From positions 1 to 49,280 of IMG/VR virus record IMGVR_UViG_3300028895_000137: DNA of 49,280 bases; one strand, written 5' to 3'. The DNA comes from a virus. The notes beneath the pieces are model-generated. The model ran no database searches. It was not told the DNA's origin and was given only the letters and a program-made list of their open reading frames with translations. The position numbers and the translations under genes are program-made. Below, piece after piece: positions 39,855 through 48,433 of the stretch. How positions within the stretch are numbered: position 1 is the stretch's first letter; each line of letters opens with the position of its first letter.

Positions 39855-40832
39855 TTAATCCCAAAGGCTTCCTGTTAAGGTGCCAGTTTTAGCGTAGTCG
39901 GTGGATCGCTTTTCGAAGAAGTTGGTGTGGACTTCTGCGTTGATGATCCAATCAAGCCATCCCAGGGGGTTATACTTAACTCCATAGTTAGCTTTGAGCC
40001 CCAATTGCAGCAATCGTCTATCTGCGATATAACGGATATACTGTTTGACTTCTTCAGCCTCAAGACCCTCAATGCCGCCCATCTCAAAAGCAAGGTCGAT
40101 AAAGTGATCTTCAAGTTCAACCATCTTTCTCGCAATCTCATAGATCTCCCTCTTGAAGTCATCCGTCCAGATCCATCGATGCTGTTTAATGAACTCCCTG
40201 AAAAGCCATAGCATTCCTTCGATGTGTAGAGACTCATCTTTGATGCTCCACTCTACGATGGTACACATACCCTTCATCTTGTTGAACCGCTGAAAGTTCA
40301 TCAAGATCGCAAAGCTACTGAAGAGCTGTAAGCCCTCGGTGAAACCTGAGTAGACAGCTAGGCTTTTAGCCACACTCTCTAAGTACTCATTACTCCCCTC
40401 CTCTCCAACGATTTTGAACTGCTCAACATAGTTGTGCTTGTCCGCCATCTCCTTGAAGCTCGTGAAAGCTTGGTACTCTACCTCATCCATCCCTACCGTA
40501 TCAAGTAGGAGACTATACGCATGCATATGGACTGACTCCATATTAGCGAAAGCTCCCATCATCATCCTCAGTTCCGGTAGTTTAAAAACCGGGATATAGT
40601 TATCGAAATACCCTTGAGCTACATCGGCGTCTCCCTGTGTGAAGAACCTAAAGAGCTGTGTCAATAGATTCTTCTCAGGAAGAGTAAGCTTGTTATTCCA
40701 ATCAGATACATCTGTGTGGAGTGGAACTTCTTCAGGAAGCCATCCCATCTTCTGTTGCTGATGGTAGAACTCAAATGCAGCTGGATACTGAAAGGGTTTA
40801 TAGTGTGCCCTTGTGTCCAGGATGCTGCTCAT
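39855..40832 (-). CDS. nrdB: Ribonucleotide reductase class I beta subunit
   Basis: 325 residues. All di-iron ligands of class I small subunits can be placed: D68, E99, H102 (MESVHMHAY), E166 (FTEGLQLF), E200 and H203 (KDESLHIEG). The radical tyrosine is Y106, at the spacing seen for Y122 in E. coli NrdB, so this is a Tyr-radical enzyme. The C-terminal tail carries the conserved Tyr/hydrophobic peptide that docks with the alpha subunit (RSTDYAKTGTLTGSLWD). It supplies dNTPs for phage replication with NrdA, encoded upstream. Two small genes lie between them. Confidence 0.94.
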   Translation of the reverse strand: MSSILDTRAHYKPFQYPAAFEFYHQQQKMGWLPEEVPLHTDVSDWNNKLTLPEKNLLTQLFRFFTQGDADVAQGYFDNYIPVFKLPELRMMMGAFANMESVHMHAYSLLLDTVGMDEVEYQAFTSFKEMADKHNYVEQFKIVGEEGSNEYLESVAKSLAVYSGFTEGLQLFSSFAILMNFQRFNKMKGMCTIVEWSIKDESLHIEGMLWLFREFIKQHRWIWTDDFKREIYEIARKMVELEDHFIDLAFEMGGIEGLEAEEVKQYIRYIADRRLLQLGLKANYGVKYNPLGWLDWIINAEVHTNFFEKRSTDYAKTGTLTGSLWD

Positions 40833-41029
40833 TACTTCACTACCTCCCCATCCACCTGGATATACATGATCTTGTCGGGGTTGAAGATTGTATACCCCTC
40901 ATCACTGAAGATCCGTAACCAAGTTCCAGATGCATCAAACCATTTTACGTTGTTTAGAACAACTACTCGGTCTTCCAAGTACATCCTACGAGTCTTCTCA
41001 TCCACGTTAACTCTGCTATGTGCAGCCAT
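40832..41029 (-). CDS. Small hypothetical protein between nrdA and nrdB
   Basis: 65 residues from ATG 41029, the second of two adjacent ATGs, 7 bases after GAGGAG. The sequence (MAAHSRVNVDEKTRRMYLED and RVVVLNNVKWFDASGTWLRI, then FSDEGYTIFNPDKIMYIQVD) is a compact beta-rich domain, with the pattern of a small Sm/SH3-like or beta-barrel fold. It overlaps the start of nrdB by one base and the preceding mini-gene by 14. A role in ribonucleotide reductase control is possible from position only. Confidence 0.6.
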   Translation of the reverse strand: MAAHSRVNVDEKTRRMYLEDRVVVLNNVKWFDASGTWLRIFSDEGYTIFNPDKIMYIQVDGEVVK

Positions 41030-41138
41030 CATTATTCTCCTCTAGCCCTTTTAGGCCTTCAATCAAGTGGTCAAGGACTGCCTGGGCCTCAAGATACTCA
41101 CCGTCCTTGATTAGTTCCTGGCAAATCTTTAACCACAT
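41016..41138 (-). CDS. 40-residue hypothetical protein downstream of nrdA
   Basis: ATG 41138 to TAG at 41016-41018. The translation (MWLKICQELIKDGEYLEAQA and VLDHLIEGLKGLEENNDGCT) is a likely helical hairpin with TPR-like spacing. It begins 11 bases after the nrdA stop and overlaps the next gene by 14 bases, fitting the tight packing of the operon. The ribosome site is weak (GCAGAG), so coupling to nrdA is likely. This is the only open frame in the gap. Confidence 0.5.
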   Translation of the reverse strand: MWLKICQELIKDGEYLEAQAVLDHLIEGLKGLEENNDGCT

Positions 41139-41149
41139 CTCTGCATGTA

Positions 41150-42994
41150 TTACCCTTCGCAATTCAGACATTCGTCTGCACTCCCGAAAGGATCATCTAG
41201 CCGAATTCTCTCTACACTTTCTGAGAGGTTCTCGGCCTTCCTTGCCCCCTCAGATCGACAGTAATAGAGGGACTTCATTCCCTTAGCCCAAGCTAGTGTG
41301 TGGAGCCTGGAGAACTTCTTGATATCATACCCTTGGTAGATGAACAGATTCACAGACTGTGACTGACAGAGGTAAATCTGACGATCCCCCGCTAGTCCAA
41401 TAATGTACTCCTGGTCAATCTCCTTGGCAGTCTTGAAGACCTCTTTCTCCCATTCAGTCAAGCAGTCTATCCCTTGGACTGATCCATCGTCAACCAAGAT
41501 CTGCTTCCAGACCTCATTTAGCCACTCTCGATCTCGTCCAAGCTCTTTCATTCGCTCATAGAGGATCGCCTCCAGGTGCTTATTCTTGATCTCAACCGTG
41601 CCAGTAAGAGTCTGCTGTACGTAAGCATTCGCTTTCCAAGGCTCGATGCTGGGACTAGTATTAAGAAGAATACTTGTAGAAGCATTAGGAGCAATAGCAA
41701 GAAGATGGGCATTACGTAGTCCAGTCCCGACCATATCCTCTGGCTCACCACGCTCTTTAGCCAAAAGCTTCGAAGCTTCAACTGCCCTCTCCTTAACCAA
41801 TCTAAAGACCCTGTGGTTGATAGAAGCAGCCATCACATTCTCAAATGGAACATTCTTAGACTGTAAGTAGCTATGGAACCCCAAGGCTCCCAGACCCAGA
41901 GACCGCTCTGCTGCCGCGGACTTCACTGCTTTCGGGATATGCTGGGCATTCCTGATAAAGTACTCCAAGACATTATCCAAGTATCTTATAGCAAAGTAGA
42001 TAAAATCTGGATCCTCTGACCACTCATCAAACTTCTCTACATTCACAGAGGCTAGACAACAGACCGCTGTTCGTTCATCGTTAGTAGGAAGGGTAATCTC
42101 AGAGCATAGATTACTGTGATGAATCTTCAGGCCTTTAGCTTTCTGAGTCTCTGGAAGATCTCTGTTAGCCGTATCTACAAAGAAGATATATGGCTCACCA
42201 GTAGCTGCTCTCAATTGCAAGATCTTCTCATACAACTCACGAACCTTTAGCGTACCAGTTACTTGTCCACTGTCTGGATCAATTAGATGCCAGTCAGGAT
42301 CTTCCCCATTCTCAAGGGCATCTCTAACCAGTTCCATGAATACATCCGGGATATTAACTCCTTGATGAAGGTTCAAGTTCTTACGGTTGATATCGCCTCC
42401 GGAGGGCTTACGCATCTCCAGGAACTCGATGATCTCTGGATGGTCAAGATCCATATAGGCTGCATAAGAGCCCCTACGAGTCTTGCCCTGAGCCCATGCG
42501 AGCATTTGGCTATCAACTACGTGAAGAAAAGGTATGCTACCAGTGCTAACAGACCCATTGCTAGTAGTAGCTCCATCAGAACGTATATCGCCCCAATAGC
42601 CACCAATGCCTCCTCCGAAGGACGATAGCCAAGCATTTTCAGTATAGTGAGCATTTAGTCCTATCCGACTGTCAGGCACATAGTTCAAGAAACAACTGAT
42701 AGGCATCCCACCCTTTGTACTCTTGAAGTGTGTACTATTAAAGCTATCAAGTGGGTCTCCTTCAGCCCAAGAGATCCTCTCAGGAGCTGTAGATAACTCA
42801 GGAGATGCCGCGGATAGCCACTGCATACTCAGGTACTGATAGATCTTCTCAGCCATCTCAGGATAATCGGAGAAAGCCCGAGCAGTACGCAAATACATCT
42901 CTTGTGGGCTCTCTTCTCCTGGAATGAAATACCTATCTTTAAGAGTGAGCTTTGCGAAGTCCGTCAGCAAATTGTCACGTTCATAATCAATCAC
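41150..42994 (-). CDS. nrdA: Ribonucleotide reductase class I alpha subunit, no ATP-cone
   Basis: 614 residues from GTG 42994 (GGAGG 6 bases upstream; no ATG in frame nearby). Catalytic residues are visible: C101 (MPISCFLNYV), N295/C297/E299 (NLCSEI), C312 (AVCCLASVN), radical-transfer Y577-Y578 (SLYYCRSEG) and the C-terminal swivel pair C609-x-x-C612 (ECLNCEG). It lacks the roughly 100-residue N-terminal ATP-cone of E. coli NrdA (761 residues), so overall activity would escape dATP feedback, common in lytic phages. It reduces ribonucleotides with NrdB. It overlaps the diphosphohydrolase gene by 8 bases. Confidence 0.94.
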   Translation of the reverse strand: MIDYERDNLLTDFAKLTLKDRYFIPGEESPQEMYLRTARAFSDYPEMAEKIYQYLSMQWLSAASPELSTAPERISWAEGDPLDSFNSTHFKSTKGGMPISCFLNYVPDSRIGLNAHYTENAWLSSFGGGIGGYWGDIRSDGATTSNGSVSTGSIPFLHVVDSQMLAWAQGKTRRGSYAAYMDLDHPEIIEFLEMRKPSGGDINRKNLNLHQGVNIPDVFMELVRDALENGEDPDWHLIDPDSGQVTGTLKVRELYEKILQLRAATGEPYIFFVDTANRDLPETQKAKGLKIHHSNLCSEITLPTNDERTAVCCLASVNVEKFDEWSEDPDFIYFAIRYLDNVLEYFIRNAQHIPKAVKSAAAERSLGLGALGFHSYLQSKNVPFENVMAASINHRVFRLVKERAVEASKLLAKERGEPEDMVGTGLRNAHLLAIAPNASTSILLNTSPSIEPWKANAYVQQTLTGTVEIKNKHLEAILYERMKELGRDREWLNEVWKQILVDDGSVQGIDCLTEWEKEVFKTAKEIDQEYIIGLAGDRQIYLCQSQSVNLFIYQGYDIKKFSRLHTLAWAKGMKSLYYCRSEGARKAENLSESVERIRLDDPFGSADECLNCEG

Positions 42995-43761: not shown

Positions 43762-44013
43762 TTAGTGAGTGATTTCATCATCAGATTTCCTTGCTACCAA
43801 TGGATTCAGTTTGATAAACTTGATGTTATCAGACGGGATGATCAATAGAGGGATCTCAGATAGATTATCATTGTAGAAGACTAAAGTATCATTGGCACCC
43901 TCAGCATTCCCGAAGGCAGTACAAACTGCTTCCATTGGATCTGAACCATCGCGCCATACAATGGTGATCTTTGTTTCCTCATGTTTTCCGTCTGGAAAGT
44001 TCACAACAGCCAT
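43762..44013 (-). CDS. Small hypothetical protein
   Basis: 83 residues from ATG 44013 with a strong AAGGAG ribosome site. It looks like a single small beta-barrel or OB/Sm-like domain: KITIVWRDGSDPMEAVCTAF, NDTLVFYNDNLSEIPLLIIP, SDNIKFIKLNPLVARKSDDE. The first 35 bases overlap the preceding nuclease gene. The function is not recognised; it may bind nucleic acid or modulate the nucleotide enzymes around it. Confidence 0.65.
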   Translation of the reverse strand: MAVVNFPDGKHEETKITIVWRDGSDPMEAVCTAFGNAEGANDTLVFYNDNLSEIPLLIIPSDNIKFIKLNPLVARKSDDEITH

Positions 44014-44401
44014 ATATTTCTCCTTCTTCTGCGAGAAGATCCAAAAGAAACTCTCGCATCTCGTAGTTATTTTTTATCAAGCTCAGTAGGTGATCCACTT
44101 GAACTACAGCCAGTGTTGGCTTGCGGTTCTTTTTCATGATCAATAGAGGCTCATAGTCACCTTTATGATCTGTGGCCTGCTGATAAGCCTCATAGACATT
44201 CAGCTTTTCTACCCATTTACACTCAATAACGTAGGGCATACGTACTCTAGCAGCTGGACTAAGTTGGACATCCTCTCCACCCTGGCCCATACCCGTAGAT
44301 CGTACATCATCTTCTTCCAGATCTTGGAACAAGTCTAATATACGATCTCGGACCTCCTGCTGTAGCTTACGCCCTTTCTGTTTAGCGCTCGCTGGTTTCA
44401 A
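43979..44401 (-). CDS. PD-(D/E)XK-like endonuclease (possible Holliday-junction resolvase)
   Basis: 140 residues from TTG 44401. The AGAGG ribosome site 5-8 bases upstream and the lack of an ATG for 35 codons support this unusual start. The core reads STGMGQGGEDVQLSP (Asp), then MPYVIECKWVEK with the E-x-K of the PD-(D/E)XK nuclease fold, then a helix NVYEAYQQATDHKGDYEPLL. The N-terminus is a charged helix (KQKGRKLQQEVRDRILDLFQ). The layout is that of phage recombination/resolution nucleases of the archaeal Hjc/T7-endonuclease size class. It follows the 5'-3' exonuclease gene after 3 bases. Confidence 0.72.
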   Translation of the reverse strand: MKPASAKQKGRKLQQEVRDRILDLFQDLEEDDVRSTGMGQGGEDVQLSPAARVRMPYVIECKWVEKLNVYEAYQQATDHKGDYEPLLIMKKNRKPTLAVVQVDHLLSLIKNNYEMREFLLDLLAEEGEIYGCCELSRRKT

Positions 44402-44404
44402 TAG

Positions 44405-45301
44405 CTACCTCTCATCTGGTGGAAGCCAGAGCTCCCCATCGTACTTTTGCATCCATAAAAGCCTAGCGATTTCCGTTACCCGCTCACGTAGTGGCATGTC
44501 AGGTTTTGGCATACGCTCTCGCTTCTTAGGATCATCAAGTGCATCCTTATAACACTCTAAGCAAAACTCCCACAGCTTCTGTTCGTCAGTTGTCTTAAGG
44601 GATTCAATCATCTTATCAGCTGTCTTCATCCCAACACGATAGATACCATAGATGTTATCCGTCATGTCCCCAACTAGCAGTTGCTTGTAGAAAAACTTGA
44701 TACCCTCTTCCCAGGAGACTGTGAACAGTTGATTCTTAGGGACGTTAAAGTGATCCCCTGGAACCATGTTCAGGTCTTTATCCTGAGTTACAATGCAGCT
44801 CTGTCTCCCTTCCTTGCGGTACTTATACTGTGCCTTGGACATACCATCGTCCGCCTCACAGTTTGTCTCCATTGTTCCGCCGTATTCATCCATGATGAGA
44901 TCTCTAGTGTACTGCCAATAGTAGGGCCTGCGCTCTACTTCTCGGTTTCCCTTGTACGGGATGATAGTACCTAGCTTATATCTGAAATTCCCATCATCGT
45001 CTGATGTGAGAAAGATCTCATATACAGGACACTTAGTTCGCTCCTTTATAAAGCGGAGTATACGATCTAAGTGATACCTTACAGCTACTACATTTCGTGG
45101 TATAACTAGCTCTTCGATCTCCCAGAAATCATTCTGGTCCTCTTCAAGCCATTCAACCAAGTCTTGCTTACAATCGAACGTCCAACGCTCTTTTGTTTCT
45201 GTGTTAATCAGGACCTTGAAGCTTTCTTGAGTGAGATGGCCGATCTTATAGACCAGCTCATCCCCATCAATCAAAGCAACTCGATCAGTGCTTGTACCCA
45301 T
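44405..45301 (-). CDS. 5'-3' exonuclease / flap endonuclease, T7 gp6-like
   Basis: 298 residues. FEN-family acidic residues are visible: D12/D14 (VALIDGDELVYK), the YKGNREVERRPYYW arch region, EADDGMSKAQYKY (about 146-158), IVTQDKDLNMVPG (about 166-178) and the helix-3-turn-helix GDMTDNIYGIYRVGMKTADK (about 213-232). In T7-like replication this enzyme removes RNA primers and degrades host DNA. The length matches T7 gp6 (300). It overlaps the preceding small gene by 17 bases. Confidence 0.9.
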   Translation of the reverse strand: MGTSTDRVALIDGDELVYKIGHLTQESFKVLINTETKERWTFDCKQDLVEWLEEDQNDFWEIEELVIPRNVVAVRYHLDRILRFIKERTKCPVYEIFLTSDDDGNFRYKLGTIIPYKGNREVERRPYYWQYTRDLIMDEYGGTMETNCEADDGMSKAQYKYRKEGRQSCIVTQDKDLNMVPGDHFNVPKNQLFTVSWEEGIKFFYKQLLVGDMTDNIYGIYRVGMKTADKMIESLKTTDEQKLWEFCLECYKDALDDPKKRERMPKPDMPLRERVTEIARLLWMQKYDGELWLPPDER

Positions 45302-45563
45302 CTCGAAGAGAAGCTACGGCGGCCACATTGCCGTCTGCTTCCGCTGCTTCCAATTCCTCTGAGTGAATACGAGCATCCCACTCAGCACTCAACTGCTCCA
45401 AGTAGTTAAAGGCCTGCGGTGCATAAGTAACCTCCTCCTCAACTACATCAGTCTCCTTGTTATAGATAATGTATACGTTCCCCTTCATTTCAGGGTCTCG
45501 CACACTCTCACCGACGATCAGTCGATAGACACCCATTTCCTTAAGTACGGTGCCTTTTAGCAT
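45285..45563 (-). CDS. Small hypothetical protein between SSB and exonuclease
   Basis: 92 residues from ATG 45563 with a strong AGGAGG ribosome site; its ATG overlaps the SSB stop (TAATG). The N-terminal 60 residues look like a small beta-domain (GVYRLIVGESVRDPEMKGNV, YIIYNKETDVVEEEVTYAPQ). The C-terminus is a charged helix (AEWDARIHSEELEAAEADG). The function is not recognised. The position between SSB and exonuclease, and coupling to both, suggests a replication accessory role. Confidence 0.65.
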   Translation of the reverse strand: MLKGTVLKEMGVYRLIVGESVRDPEMKGNVYIIYNKETDVVEEEVTYAPQAFNYLEQLSAEWDARIHSEELEAAEADGNVAAVASLRDGYKH

Positions 45564-45982
45564 TACAGGTCCTCCTTAGATACCGGCTTAAACTCTGAAC
45601 CACCACCACCGGCGTATTCGACCAGTTCAATGACTTGAACTCCTTCCAGATCAGCAGACATACCGCTACCGAAGCTGTTGTTATACTGGTATGGACGGAT
45701 CTGTACCAATACCAATGAGCCGTTGCCAATCTCTTCATTGAACGGATTAGCATCTGCATCTACAACATTCGGCTTTCCTGCCTCTTCGCCAGTCACCTTC
45801 AGTACGTTACGCTTAACCTTGAAGACGTTATTATCTCCATCCTTCTTGACTTTCAGGCCAGCCTCTCGCAGCTCTTGTGCGACATCATCCTCGACAAGTA
45901 GAGTAATGCTGTACTTTGCAGGTGGGAAACGGTCGTCTGGTTTCTGAACGTGTGCCCAATTTGCAATACCTTTTACCAACAT
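45563..45982 (-). CDS. ssb: ssDNA-binding protein (internal start within the fusion)
   Basis: 139 residues from ATG 45982, preceded by AGGGAG about 12 bases upstream and AAGGAG a few bases further. The sequence MLVKGIANWAHVQKPDDRFP, then KYSITLLVEDDVAQELREAG, VKRNVLKVTGEEAGKPNVVD and NGSLVLVQIRPYQYNNSFGS is the OB-fold pattern of phage gp2.5/DUF2815-like single-strand binding proteins. The acidic C-terminal tail (EFKPVSKEDL) is used in such proteins to contact polymerase. This is probably the functional SSB, since codon use and family length fit and the polymerase gene lies just upstream. Confidence 0.72.
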   Translation of the reverse strand: MLVKGIANWAHVQKPDDRFPPAKYSITLLVEDDVAQELREAGLKVKKDGDNNVFKVKRNVLKVTGEEAGKPNVVDADANPFNEEIGNGSLVLVQIRPYQYNNSFGSGMSADLEGVQVIELVEYAGGGGSEFKPVSKEDL

Positions 45983-46417
45983 AAGTTTATTTCTCCCTAG
46001 CTCCTTCGAGCTATCTAGATAACGGATAGCGGACTGCAAGATCGCAGGGTTATCTTGTAGCAGTCCAAGTCCAGTGTTACAGTTAGAGCATAAAAGCCCC
46101 CTAACTGCCCCTGTTTGATGGTCGTGGTCAACGCAGAGATGACCAGAGATAGTCTCGTCATCCGATCCACATATCGCGCAGCAACCATGCTGTTCATCGA
46201 TCATAGTCAGGTAATGTTCCTCAGTGATACCATAACTATGCTTAAGGTGATGGCTCCTTCGGCCTTCAGTCTTACATGAAATGCAGTACATCGCCCTCCC
46301 ATCAGGGGAGGATTCTTGTCGATGGAAAGCATCGAATGCCTTCTCTGTACCACACTTCGTGCAGACCTTACGACCTCTGGAGATATCATACTCTATCTCC
46401 TCTCTCGTTCGTGGCAT
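45563..46417 (-). CDS. Endonuclease VII-like HNH protein fused in frame to ssDNA-binding protein
   Basis: 284 residues. Residues 1-140 are a recombination endonuclease VII-type (His-Me finger) domain: C19-x-x-C22, C45-x-x-C48, then YGITEEHYLTMIDEQHGC, C80-x-x-C83, the D97-H98-D99-H100 motif (CVDHDHQTGAVRG), C110-x-x-C113 and N114. Free-standing proteins of this kind behave as homing endonucleases. With no stop codon the frame runs on (SSKELGRNKL) into residue 146, where a T7 gp2.5-like ssDNA-binding protein begins. The insertion separates the strong AAGGAGG site from SSB. Whether a fusion, SSB alone or both is made must be tested. Confidence 0.78.
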   Translation of the reverse strand: MPRTREEIEYDISRGRKVCTKCGTEKAFDAFHRQESSPDGRAMYCISCKTEGRRSHHLKHSYGITEEHYLTMIDEQHGCCAICGSDDETISGHLCVDHDHQTGAVRGLLCSNCNTGLGLLQDNPAILQSAIRYLDSSKELGRNKLMLVKGIANWAHVQKPDDRFPPAKYSITLLVEDDVAQELREAGLKVKKDGDNNVFKVKRNVLKVTGEEAGKPNVVDADANPFNEEIGNGSLVLVQIRPYQYNNSFGSGMSADLEGVQVIELVEYAGGGGSEFKPVSKEDL

Positions 46418-46453
46418 ACTATATTAGACAACCTCCTTACCAATAAAGTTCCA

Positions 46454-48433
46454 TTAGTGAGTCTCAGCCCAGTTATTACCTACCATGTACTCAGCGTCCA
46501 TAGGGATTCTCATCCCAAGATCGACACCTGCTTGGCGAATACTCTTCACACCAAGCTCGCCCACTCGACAATAGTGTCGGCTATAGATCCCATCATGTTC
46601 ATGGATACCTGACCAGATTTGGTCGCCATAAGGCCTAGAGCGCACAGCTTCTAGGTTGTCCGATTCATAGGACAGTACAAACCTCTTAGGCACACCAGTT
46701 TGAAGTTCATCATGAACATTTGCAAGATACTCCCACTGAAGGCGCTCATCTCTCGCCCAGTGATCAAAGATCTGTGCAGACTTCTTCATGATGATTGAAC
46801 CGCATGACTGAAATAGAGCGTTGAGAGCAGAGTGGCTAGACCGGATCAGGATCTTACGTCCATCGATACCGGGAACATAGCCATACTCTTCTGCCATACG
46901 CATGATCTTATCACGCAGTCGCCCTAAGCCTGGGTTGTTATCCCAAAACTCCTCGAATCGCGACTCAGCGATCTTCCTAGGAATCTTAAGAGTCTCAGCT
47001 AACTTAGGGACTTGTGCCCCATAAACGAGAGCATAGAATCCGTTCTTGCTGATATTTCGGTAGGGTGTGAACTCTGCATCGGCTTTCGTTAGCCCCTCAG
47101 TCTCTTCCGGAAAGAAGATATGAGCGTTATGCGAATGTACGTCACCCTCAAGTATCAGCTGAGCGAACTCGCCGCCATCAAACTTATAGGTATAATGCGC
47201 CATTACCCTAGCTTCTAGTCCAGCCCCATCCCAGCCAACTAAGTAGTCGCTTTGATGTGGTATGAACAGCTGACGCATCTGTTCCCCAAATAACACTTTT
47301 GGATCGGCCTTCGGCACATTAACGACAATTTTATGCTTCATCCTAGCGGTATTAGTTCCCGCTGAATCAGCACCGGCTGTCAACCTTCCGTCAGGTCTTA
47401 GCTTGTCGATCCAACCTTCGATTTGGGATTTGCGGTGAGCATAGGTATAGTACTCAGCGAGCTTTTTACCTATGGGAAGTTCCATCTGACTTAGTGTCTC
47501 AACTGGTTTCCCTTTGTCAGTTAGCTTCCATTTCTCACCACTTGGTGTCTTGAGCGTTGGTTTCCACCCGAGCTTAAGTAGCTGGTCCGCCAAACGCTCT
47601 CTTTTTGTTAATGATGGCTCTTCAAACGACACCCTAGTAAAAGGGCCACCAACCGAATGGACGTCCTCGCCCATATAGTTAACGACAGCTTGAGAATAGT
47701 CTAAGTTCTTCTTAAACGGCTTCTTAAGTTCTGTCCCGGCATACACCTCGTAGGATAGATAGGATCTGATGTCGCTATACAAGTCCTCTAGAATCGCATC
47801 CAACGTCTTGATGTGCTGGTGCGCGAGCTGTATGTCAAATGGGAAACCTGTGACCTCTTGTTGGTGTATGATCCAGGCTATGTATTGCTCTAGCTCAAAC
47901 GCTGGAGCCCACTCCCAATCGCCTGCCTCCTCGATCATCTTGAGGAATGAGAGATGGTTGATCTCTACGTCCTCAGTACACCTATGAAGCATCTCCTTAT
48001 CAAATGTTTCCCACTCATAGTAGGGCGGCTTACCGCGGCCCACTCGATAACCCCAAGTTGCAAGACTATGGGGAGTCATCTTGTCCAGTCTCCCTGTCAA
48101 GGGATTCACTACACTTGTAGGGCAGTTAACTGGCAATTGACGATCTGGGTTTAACACCTTAGAGATTACAAGTGTATCGACTACCTTCTCTAAGGGCCAT
48201 GAGAAGCCCATAAGCTTCTCTAATACCGGTAGGTCGTATGAAATTATGTTATGACCTACAAGAAAGTCCGCGGAGTAAAGCTCATCTGTGGCATACTTCA
48301 GCGTATTCTCGTAATACTGGTTGACTGTGCCAGTCTGGAGGTCCTTTATTACGATACAATGTACTGTGTCCGGGTCAAACCCATTTGCCTCGATATCGAA
48401 TACGAGGTACTTCTCACTTTTCAAGTCATACAT
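46454..48433 (-). CDS. DNA polymerase, family A, T7-type
   Basis: 659 residues (T7 gp5 is 704). 3'-5' exonuclease: D13/E15 (VFDIEANG), D67 (GHNIISYDLP), D155 (CTEDVEINH). Polymerase: motif A D402 (GWDGAGLEARVMAHY), motif B R459-x3-K463-x3-Y467 (YRNISKNGFYALVYGAQ), motif C H574-D575-E576 (ANVHDELQTG). Tyr467 occupies the position that sets ddNTP discrimination in T7 polymerase (Y526). It is the replicative polymerase. The gene starts with AGGAG upstream and follows a 50-residue acidic protein. No primase/helicase gene is in the window. Confidence 0.95.
   Translation of the reverse strand: MYDLKSEKYLVFDIEANGFDPDTVHCIVIKDLQTGTVNQYYENTLKYATDELYSADFLVGHNIISYDLPVLEKLMGFSWPLEKVVDTLVISKVLNPDRQLPVNCPTSVVNPLTGRLDKMTPHSLATWGYRVGRGKPPYYEWETFDKEMLHRCTEDVEINHLSFLKMIEEAGDWEWAPAFELEQYIAWIIHQQEVTGFPFDIQLAHQHIKTLDAILEDLYSDIRSYLSYEVYAGTELKKPFKKNLDYSQAVVNYMGEDVHSVGGPFTRVSFEEPSLTKRERLADQLLKLGWKPTLKTPSGEKWKLTDKGKPVETLSQMELPIGKKLAEYYTYAHRKSQIEGWIDKLRPDGRLTAGADSAGTNTARMKHKIVVNVPKADPKVLFGEQMRQLFIPHQSDYLVGWDGAGLEARVMAHYTYKFDGGEFAQLILEGDVHSHNAHIFFPEETEGLTKADAEFTPYRNISKNGFYALVYGAQVPKLAETLKIPRKIAESRFEEFWDNNPGLGRLRDKIMRMAEEYGYVPGIDGRKILIRSSHSALNALFQSCGSIIMKKSAQIFDHWARDERLQWEYLANVHDELQTGVPKRFVLSYESDNLEAVRSRPYGDQIWSGIHEHDGIYSRHYCRVGELGVKSIRQAGVDLGMRIPMDAEYMVGNNWAETH

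Follow-up and report, generated by a model that had tools for sequence, protein, structure and literature searches.

An endonuclease VII-type nuclease and a gp2.5-type SSB share one open reading frame in a phage

The DNA analysed here (the window) is the entire IMG/VR record IMGVR_UViG_3300028895_000137, a stretch of 49,280 nucleotides, and represents a piece of a phage that is also recorded as G001 (68,553 bp). The features of the locus under study, from upstream to downstream, are the following.

46454..48433, minus strand: DNA polymerase A, 659 aa, the upstream neighbour of the fused frame, 36 bp away (Pfam/PHROG)
46432..46438, minus strand: ribosome site AAGGAGG of the fused frame, with a long spacer of about 13-14 nt
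45563..46417, minus strand: fused ORF of 284 aa, endonuclease VII-type nuclease plus gp2.5-type SSB (ORF, Pfam, PHROG; same frame in G001)
46274..46363, minus strand: N-terminal CxxC...CxxC stretch, residues 19-48 (motif positions; aligned with Hpy99I and F-CphI)
46013..46252, minus strand: endonuclease VII core, residues 56-135, with CAIC/DHDH/R/CSNC/N (Pfam PF02945; motif as defined in PMC6083498)
45983..46006, minus strand: residues 138-145, KELGRNKL, probably the SSB leader (similarity to the L192 leader; usual nuclease ends)
45993..45998, minus strand: internal ribosome site AGGGAG of the SSB, about 9-10 nt before its ATG
45563..45982, minus strand: gp2.5-type SSB, 139 aa, with its own ATG at 45982 (PHROG 112, Met alignment, AlphaFold2, Foldseek)
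45285..45563, minus strand: 92-aa ORF with no assigned function, the downstream neighbour, its ATG overlapping the SSB stop (ORF list)
44405..45301, minus strand: 5'-3' exonuclease (phrog_107; Pfam matches below cut-off)
43979..44401, minus strand: PDDEXK nuclease (RusA-like phrog_244), a candidate junction resolvase (Pfam, PHROG)

At the centre of the locus lies a single open frame of 284 codons, which runs on the minus strand from 46417 to 45563 and encodes an endonuclease VII-type nuclease followed by a complete T7 gp2.5-type SSB. The region between the two domains contains no stop codon. The first-pass annotation had placed this frame at the correct coordinates without giving its strand, and the read-through from nuclease to SSB that it described is confirmed by the frame itself, by the Pfam and PHROG domains and by the second record. 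G001 carries the same fused frame with one mismatch in the 7,715 bp around the locus; over 40,000 bp elsewhere, a single mismatch and a 20-base gap separate it from the window (window positions 40000-41565 were left out of the comparison). As G001 is the same phage, it backs the sequence and adds no independent lineage. The open fusion frame is a true feature of one phage population, the only one from which the fusion is known.

The genes around the fused frame differ in several details from those of related phages. The DNA polymerase of the window is encoded by one frame, whereas its exonuclease and polymerase parts are found in separate frames in L209, L211, L005 and L202. The 92-aa ORF is matched in six of the nine relatives' loci tested, the exceptions being L209, L010 and the truncated L211. 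The gene that follows the exonuclease gene encodes the PDDEXK protein in the window, whereas genes with weak HNH matches occupy this place in L191, L193, L005 and L010.

The SSB part is recognised by PHROG 112 (gp2.5-like SSB) at residues 141-277 of the fused protein with 73-74 bits (E about 3e-20), and weakly by the Pfam family Enc34_ssDNA-bd (E 7e-6). Residue Met146, which corresponds to the ATG at 45982, aligns with the first methionine of seven other phage SSBs. The AlphaFold2 model of the SSB alone, built with 20 relatives in the alignment, has a pLDDT of 86.8. Its best PDB match by Foldseek is T7 gp2.5 (1je5, E 8.7e-8), followed by the Enc34 SSB (5odl, E 1.9e-7), and the protein is thus predicted to adopt the OB fold of gp2.5. 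The likeness to both proteins lies in the predicted fold, whereas the protein read from 46417 differs from them by an N-terminal nuclease extension of 145 residues. T7 gp2.5 has an acidic C-terminal tail with a final aromatic residue. The SSB of the window ends in SKEDL, which is short and has no final aromatic residue; DDF or GDF-like tails are found in several relatives.

The nuclease part contains the Pfam domain Endonuclease_7 at residues 56-135 with an E value of 1.3e-23. The endonuclease VII motif is defined in PMC6083498 as CX2-4C, DHDH, R, CX2C and N. All motif residues are intact in the fused protein (CAIC at 80-83, DHDH at 97-100, R106, CSNC at 110-113 and N114). The N-terminal stretch with two CxxC pairs appears zinc-ribbon-like, judged by its cysteines. 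F-CphI, a free-standing homing endonuclease of cyanophage S-PM2 with the endonuclease VII motif, aligns with residues 17-134 (38.8% identity over 129 columns, 89 bits), while the alignment with T4 gp49 is confined to residues 64-121 and reaches 36 bits. The comparison with solved structures gives the same picture: the restriction enzyme Hpy99I is matched over residues 15-135 (E 1.1e-11), and T4 endonuclease VII over residues 70-121 only (E 9e-4). F-CphI and Hpy99I belong to the endonuclease clade and T4 gp49 to the resolvase clade (PMC6083498). A resolvase of the T4 endonuclease VII kind would align with gp49 over its whole length and carry the motif at its N-terminus. Here the gp49 alignment is partial, and the motif stands at the C-terminal side of the nuclease part (145 residues), being N-terminal only with reference to the whole fused ORF. 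Because the near-full matches are to F-CphI and Hpy99I and the match to T4 endonuclease VII covers the core only, the nuclease is best classed from its sequence as homing-type rather than as a resolvase. In a nuclease tree of 19 rows none of the 16 inner branches was well supported, and the tree favours neither class. The first-pass annotation had described the frame as an in-frame fusion of a homing-type endonuclease VII with a gp2.5-like SSB, and the sequence comparisons support this.

Other phages carry relatives of this nuclease at varied positions: next to a kinase gene, between virion protein genes, after ssb in S-CBS2 and after the DNA polymerase gene in Pseudomonas phage ventosus. In ventosus, where a match seemed to extend past the nuclease, the next gene matches families of unknown function only and not an SSB family. 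In its G+C content, GC3 and codon usage the nuclease part resembles the rest of the phage and is no outlier. In a check for an intron, no Rfam match reached the gathering score in the whole window, and none was found in 45900-46600 at E values up to 5. A small G+C-rich hairpin lies within the nuclease coding region at window positions 46295-46311. Beside it stands a GGGAGG 3 nt before the in-frame ATG of Met43, which is too close for a usual start.

The junction between the two parts was examined together with the start signals. Of 17 compared nucleases, 15 stop 1-8 residues past a conserved YL/YI/YV/YM, as judged by eye, the exceptions being L014 and L191. The fused frame continues for 11 residues past its conserved YL and then reaches Met146. 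Each of the other two frames holds two stops between residue 133 and the SSB ATG, and in both of them a TAG follows just past the conserved YL. When codons 135-145 were shuffled, the fused frame stayed open in 41% of the shuffles. In-frame entry into the SSB after the loss of a stop is therefore not improbable, and the open frame gives no evidence of selection. The residues KELGRNKL probably represent the SSB leader read as protein. In L192 the leader that follows the stop of an HNH gene reads LGKIK and then M, and the window reads LGRNKL and then M; this likeness extends over some 20 purine-rich bases, and convergence could account for it.

The SSB start is preceded by its own ribosome site, as the first-pass annotation had stated. 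AGGGAG is well spaced from the ATG at 45982 and pairs with the 16S tail at an energy of -8.8, which is tied for fifth among the 22 starts examined. The start of the long form at 46417 pairs more strongly (-12.5) and has the long spacer listed above. A simple scan for embedded sigma-70 promoters, with phage-type promoters outside its scope, found none on the minus strand; on the plus strand one was found and 2.5 were expected.

The first-pass annotation had proposed a comparison with related phages carrying the SSB without the 145-residue extension at the same locus, and such phages exist, namely L209, L010, L005 and L193. Among the relatives that share the gene order L209 is the best, its polymerase being 45-53%, its SSB 44% and its exonuclease 39% identical. 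Its polymerase and SSB genes are separated by 9 bp with no insert, and the corresponding gap is 70 bp in L010. L193 and L005 (terminase 60.5% identical) have only small ORFs between the two genes, and the two in L005 match no PHROG. Other relatives carry different nuclease genes in this segment. In L192 an HNH_3 gene (E 5.2e-15), unrelated to endonuclease VII, ends 15 bp before the SSB and lies in the same frame, one stop apart; an AP2 match of this gene is below its cut-off. The polymerase gene of L191 (L191 3033-5147) is interrupted by an endonuclease VII ORF, and the split is flanked by two group I intron matches, one of 36.1 bits (E 2.2e-7) and one of 24.5 bits (E 7e-4), both below the Rfam gathering score of 50. 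L208 (1-1116) has a 3' group I intron match of 35.2 bits (E 3.5e-7), likewise below the gathering score, which lies downstream of an ORF and before a polymerase piece, the upstream polymerase piece being off the contig. Since no Pfam family matches the L208 ORF at E 0.01, it is not called a nuclease.

A close parallel to the fusion is found in S-RIP1 (NC_020867; L002 5837-6258). As in the window, an endonuclease VII core lies directly before the SSB in the same frame, but there the core ends in a TAA, with the SSB ATG directly next to it. The S-RIP1 nuclease gene is unannotated and frameshifted, with its N-terminal part in another frame. At this place, relatives whose SSB is 72-80% identical lack an insert. 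In S-RIP2, S-CBP4 and MedDCM-S04-C24 the RNA polymerase overlaps or abuts the SSB without an insert; the apparent gene before the SSB in MedDCM-OCT-S04-C24 is the end of the RNA polymerase and not a nuclease.

Several surveys were made for a second fusion. Ninety loci gave an SSB match, five of which are copies of this phage. None of the 85 non-self loci holds another fusion, and the upstream in-frame opening is at most 33 codons; in this survey two loci are cut at once by a contig end, several have short upstream flanks, and S-RIP1 escaped detection. Only one of the 85, L010, has an endonuclease VII gene, about 3 kb away. Longer upstream frames of 75 and 106 codons in L215 and L216 proved to be partial matches inside longer SSB genes and contain no endonuclease VII motif. 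The terminase-relative set comprised 61 relatives together with L005 and L010 (63 records, mostly fragments), of which 50 were searched. The SSB was found in six of these 50, one being this phage, and endonuclease VII and SSB share one frame in this phage only. When all 274 loci were scanned for the motif, it was found at 36 places, and at ten of these more than 90 residues follow it. These ten are eight copies of this phage, T4 gp49 and L025 (3001-3537), where two tandem endonuclease VII domains in one open frame account for the length, so that the scan revealed no second fusion. When 50,697 phage records were searched with the fused protein, 2,367 matched. Among the 40 of these matches listed, none reached 80% coverage, and the highest coverage (77%) belonged to S-RIP1, which has the internal stop; at its sensitivity this search would miss a fusion to a very different SSB. 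The literature searched contained no recognisable report of an endonuclease VII-SSB fusion, which is weak evidence of absence.

We propose that a free-standing, F-CphI-like homing gene inserted at the border of the SSB leader; its frame lacks a stop and now runs into the SSB. We give this reading a probability of about two in three. The alternative that the fusion is a working two-part enzyme, in which the SSB would keep the nuclease at ssDNA or forks and two starts would serve to make both the fusion and free SSB, agrees with the open frame, the intact motifs of both parts, the strong ribosome site of the long form and good site of the short form (-12.5 and -8.8), and the phage-like composition. 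It is considered unlikely, as the fusion is confined to one population and occurs in none of the 85 non-self SSB loci, the linker resembles an untranslated leader, about 41% of shuffles leave the frame open by chance, and the spacer after the ribosome site of the long form is long. A related possibility, that free SSB is accompanied by an SSB-borne homing nuclease which is carried to ssDNA at forks or gaps and cuts insert-free genomes there, is judged quite unlikely. If it were true, cutting and strand invasion would occur where the replication and recombination proteins already are, and the fusion to an essential gene would help to keep the mobile gene.

It is very unlikely that the nuclease part is the Holliday junction resolvase of the phage, fused to the SSB for recombination. 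The endonuclease VII family name and the position among replication and recombination genes would suit this function, and a podovirus endonuclease VII clade without endonuclease I has been proposed to consist of resolvases (PMC6083498). The poor, core-only match to T4 endonuclease VII against near-full matches to Hpy99I and F-CphI speaks against it, as do the C-terminal location of the motif within the nuclease part, shared with the endonuclease clade of PMC6083498, the presence of a separate RusA-like/PDDEXK gene, and the absence of this nuclease from the same place in close relatives. A sequence or assembly error, by which a one-base slip hides the stop of the nuclease and makes two ordinary adjacent genes look fused, would fit the TAG that both other frames carry just past the YL, where most of the compared nucleases (15 of 17) end. 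This explanation is highly improbable, given that two records agree, possibly from shared source material or reads, and that the junction contains no homopolymer run.

According to the preferred reading, insertion with loss of the stop, a free-standing homing gene with the endonuclease VII motif would have landed in the gap that separates the DNA polymerase gene from SSB, at the 5' border of the SSB leader. The nuclease would move by homing, and its gene would once have had a stop of its own near residue 136-142. This stop may have been lost through a substitution or a slip. Free SSB would be made from 45982, and some full-length fusion may also be made from 46417. Most likely the fusion is a by-product that the phage tolerates, and not a two-part enzyme kept by selection. 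Insertion with loss of the stop codon had already been suggested in the first-pass annotation and remains the best reading; its description as recent is not borne out by the nuclease composition and codon usage, which are like those of the rest of the phage. The further suggestion that the fusion ties the mobile element to SSB expression is not supported, because the SSB start has its own ribosome site and SSB could be made without the nuclease. With such a start the phage could lose the nuclease and still keep its SSB, so the fusion alone is no lock.

The nuclease part resembles F-CphI in its motif residues, its length and its layout, with CxxC...CxxC first and the endonuclease VII motif last (PMC6083498). 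The F-CphI gene stands by itself close to the psbA intron, whereas the nuclease of the window reads into the SSB and no intron signal was found. Endonuclease VII motifs are also described in polymerase B sequences of Caenorhabditis (PMC6083498), so that fusing this motif to other proteins is not unheard of. A comparable arrangement is that of segG in phage T4, which lies between gene 32 (SSB) and gene 59 and contains the gene 32 promoters, a situation argued to favour its retention in a review of T4 mobile elements (PMC2988022). In both cases a free-standing homing gene adjoins an SSB gene and contains signals for the expression of SSB. The segG product is a GIY-YIG nuclease, and its gene has its own stop and embedded promoters (PMC2988022), in contrast to the endonuclease VII motif, the missing stop and the embedded ribosome site of the window. 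By analogy, the present case can be regarded as a closer form of the segG arrangement, one that reaches the reading frame itself.

Should the fusion be expressed, it would show how a mobile nuclease can join an essential replication protein harmlessly, with an internal start covering the risk. Either way, the polymerase-SSB segment of this phage lineage has repeatedly been hit by different mobile nucleases. Two modes are seen in the lineage, a free-standing gene before the SSB and an intron-like arrangement in the polymerase gene. Such genes land recurrently at the edge of the SSB leader, comparable to segG at gene 32 of T4. The locus provides a testable case of mobile genes settling beside essential genes.
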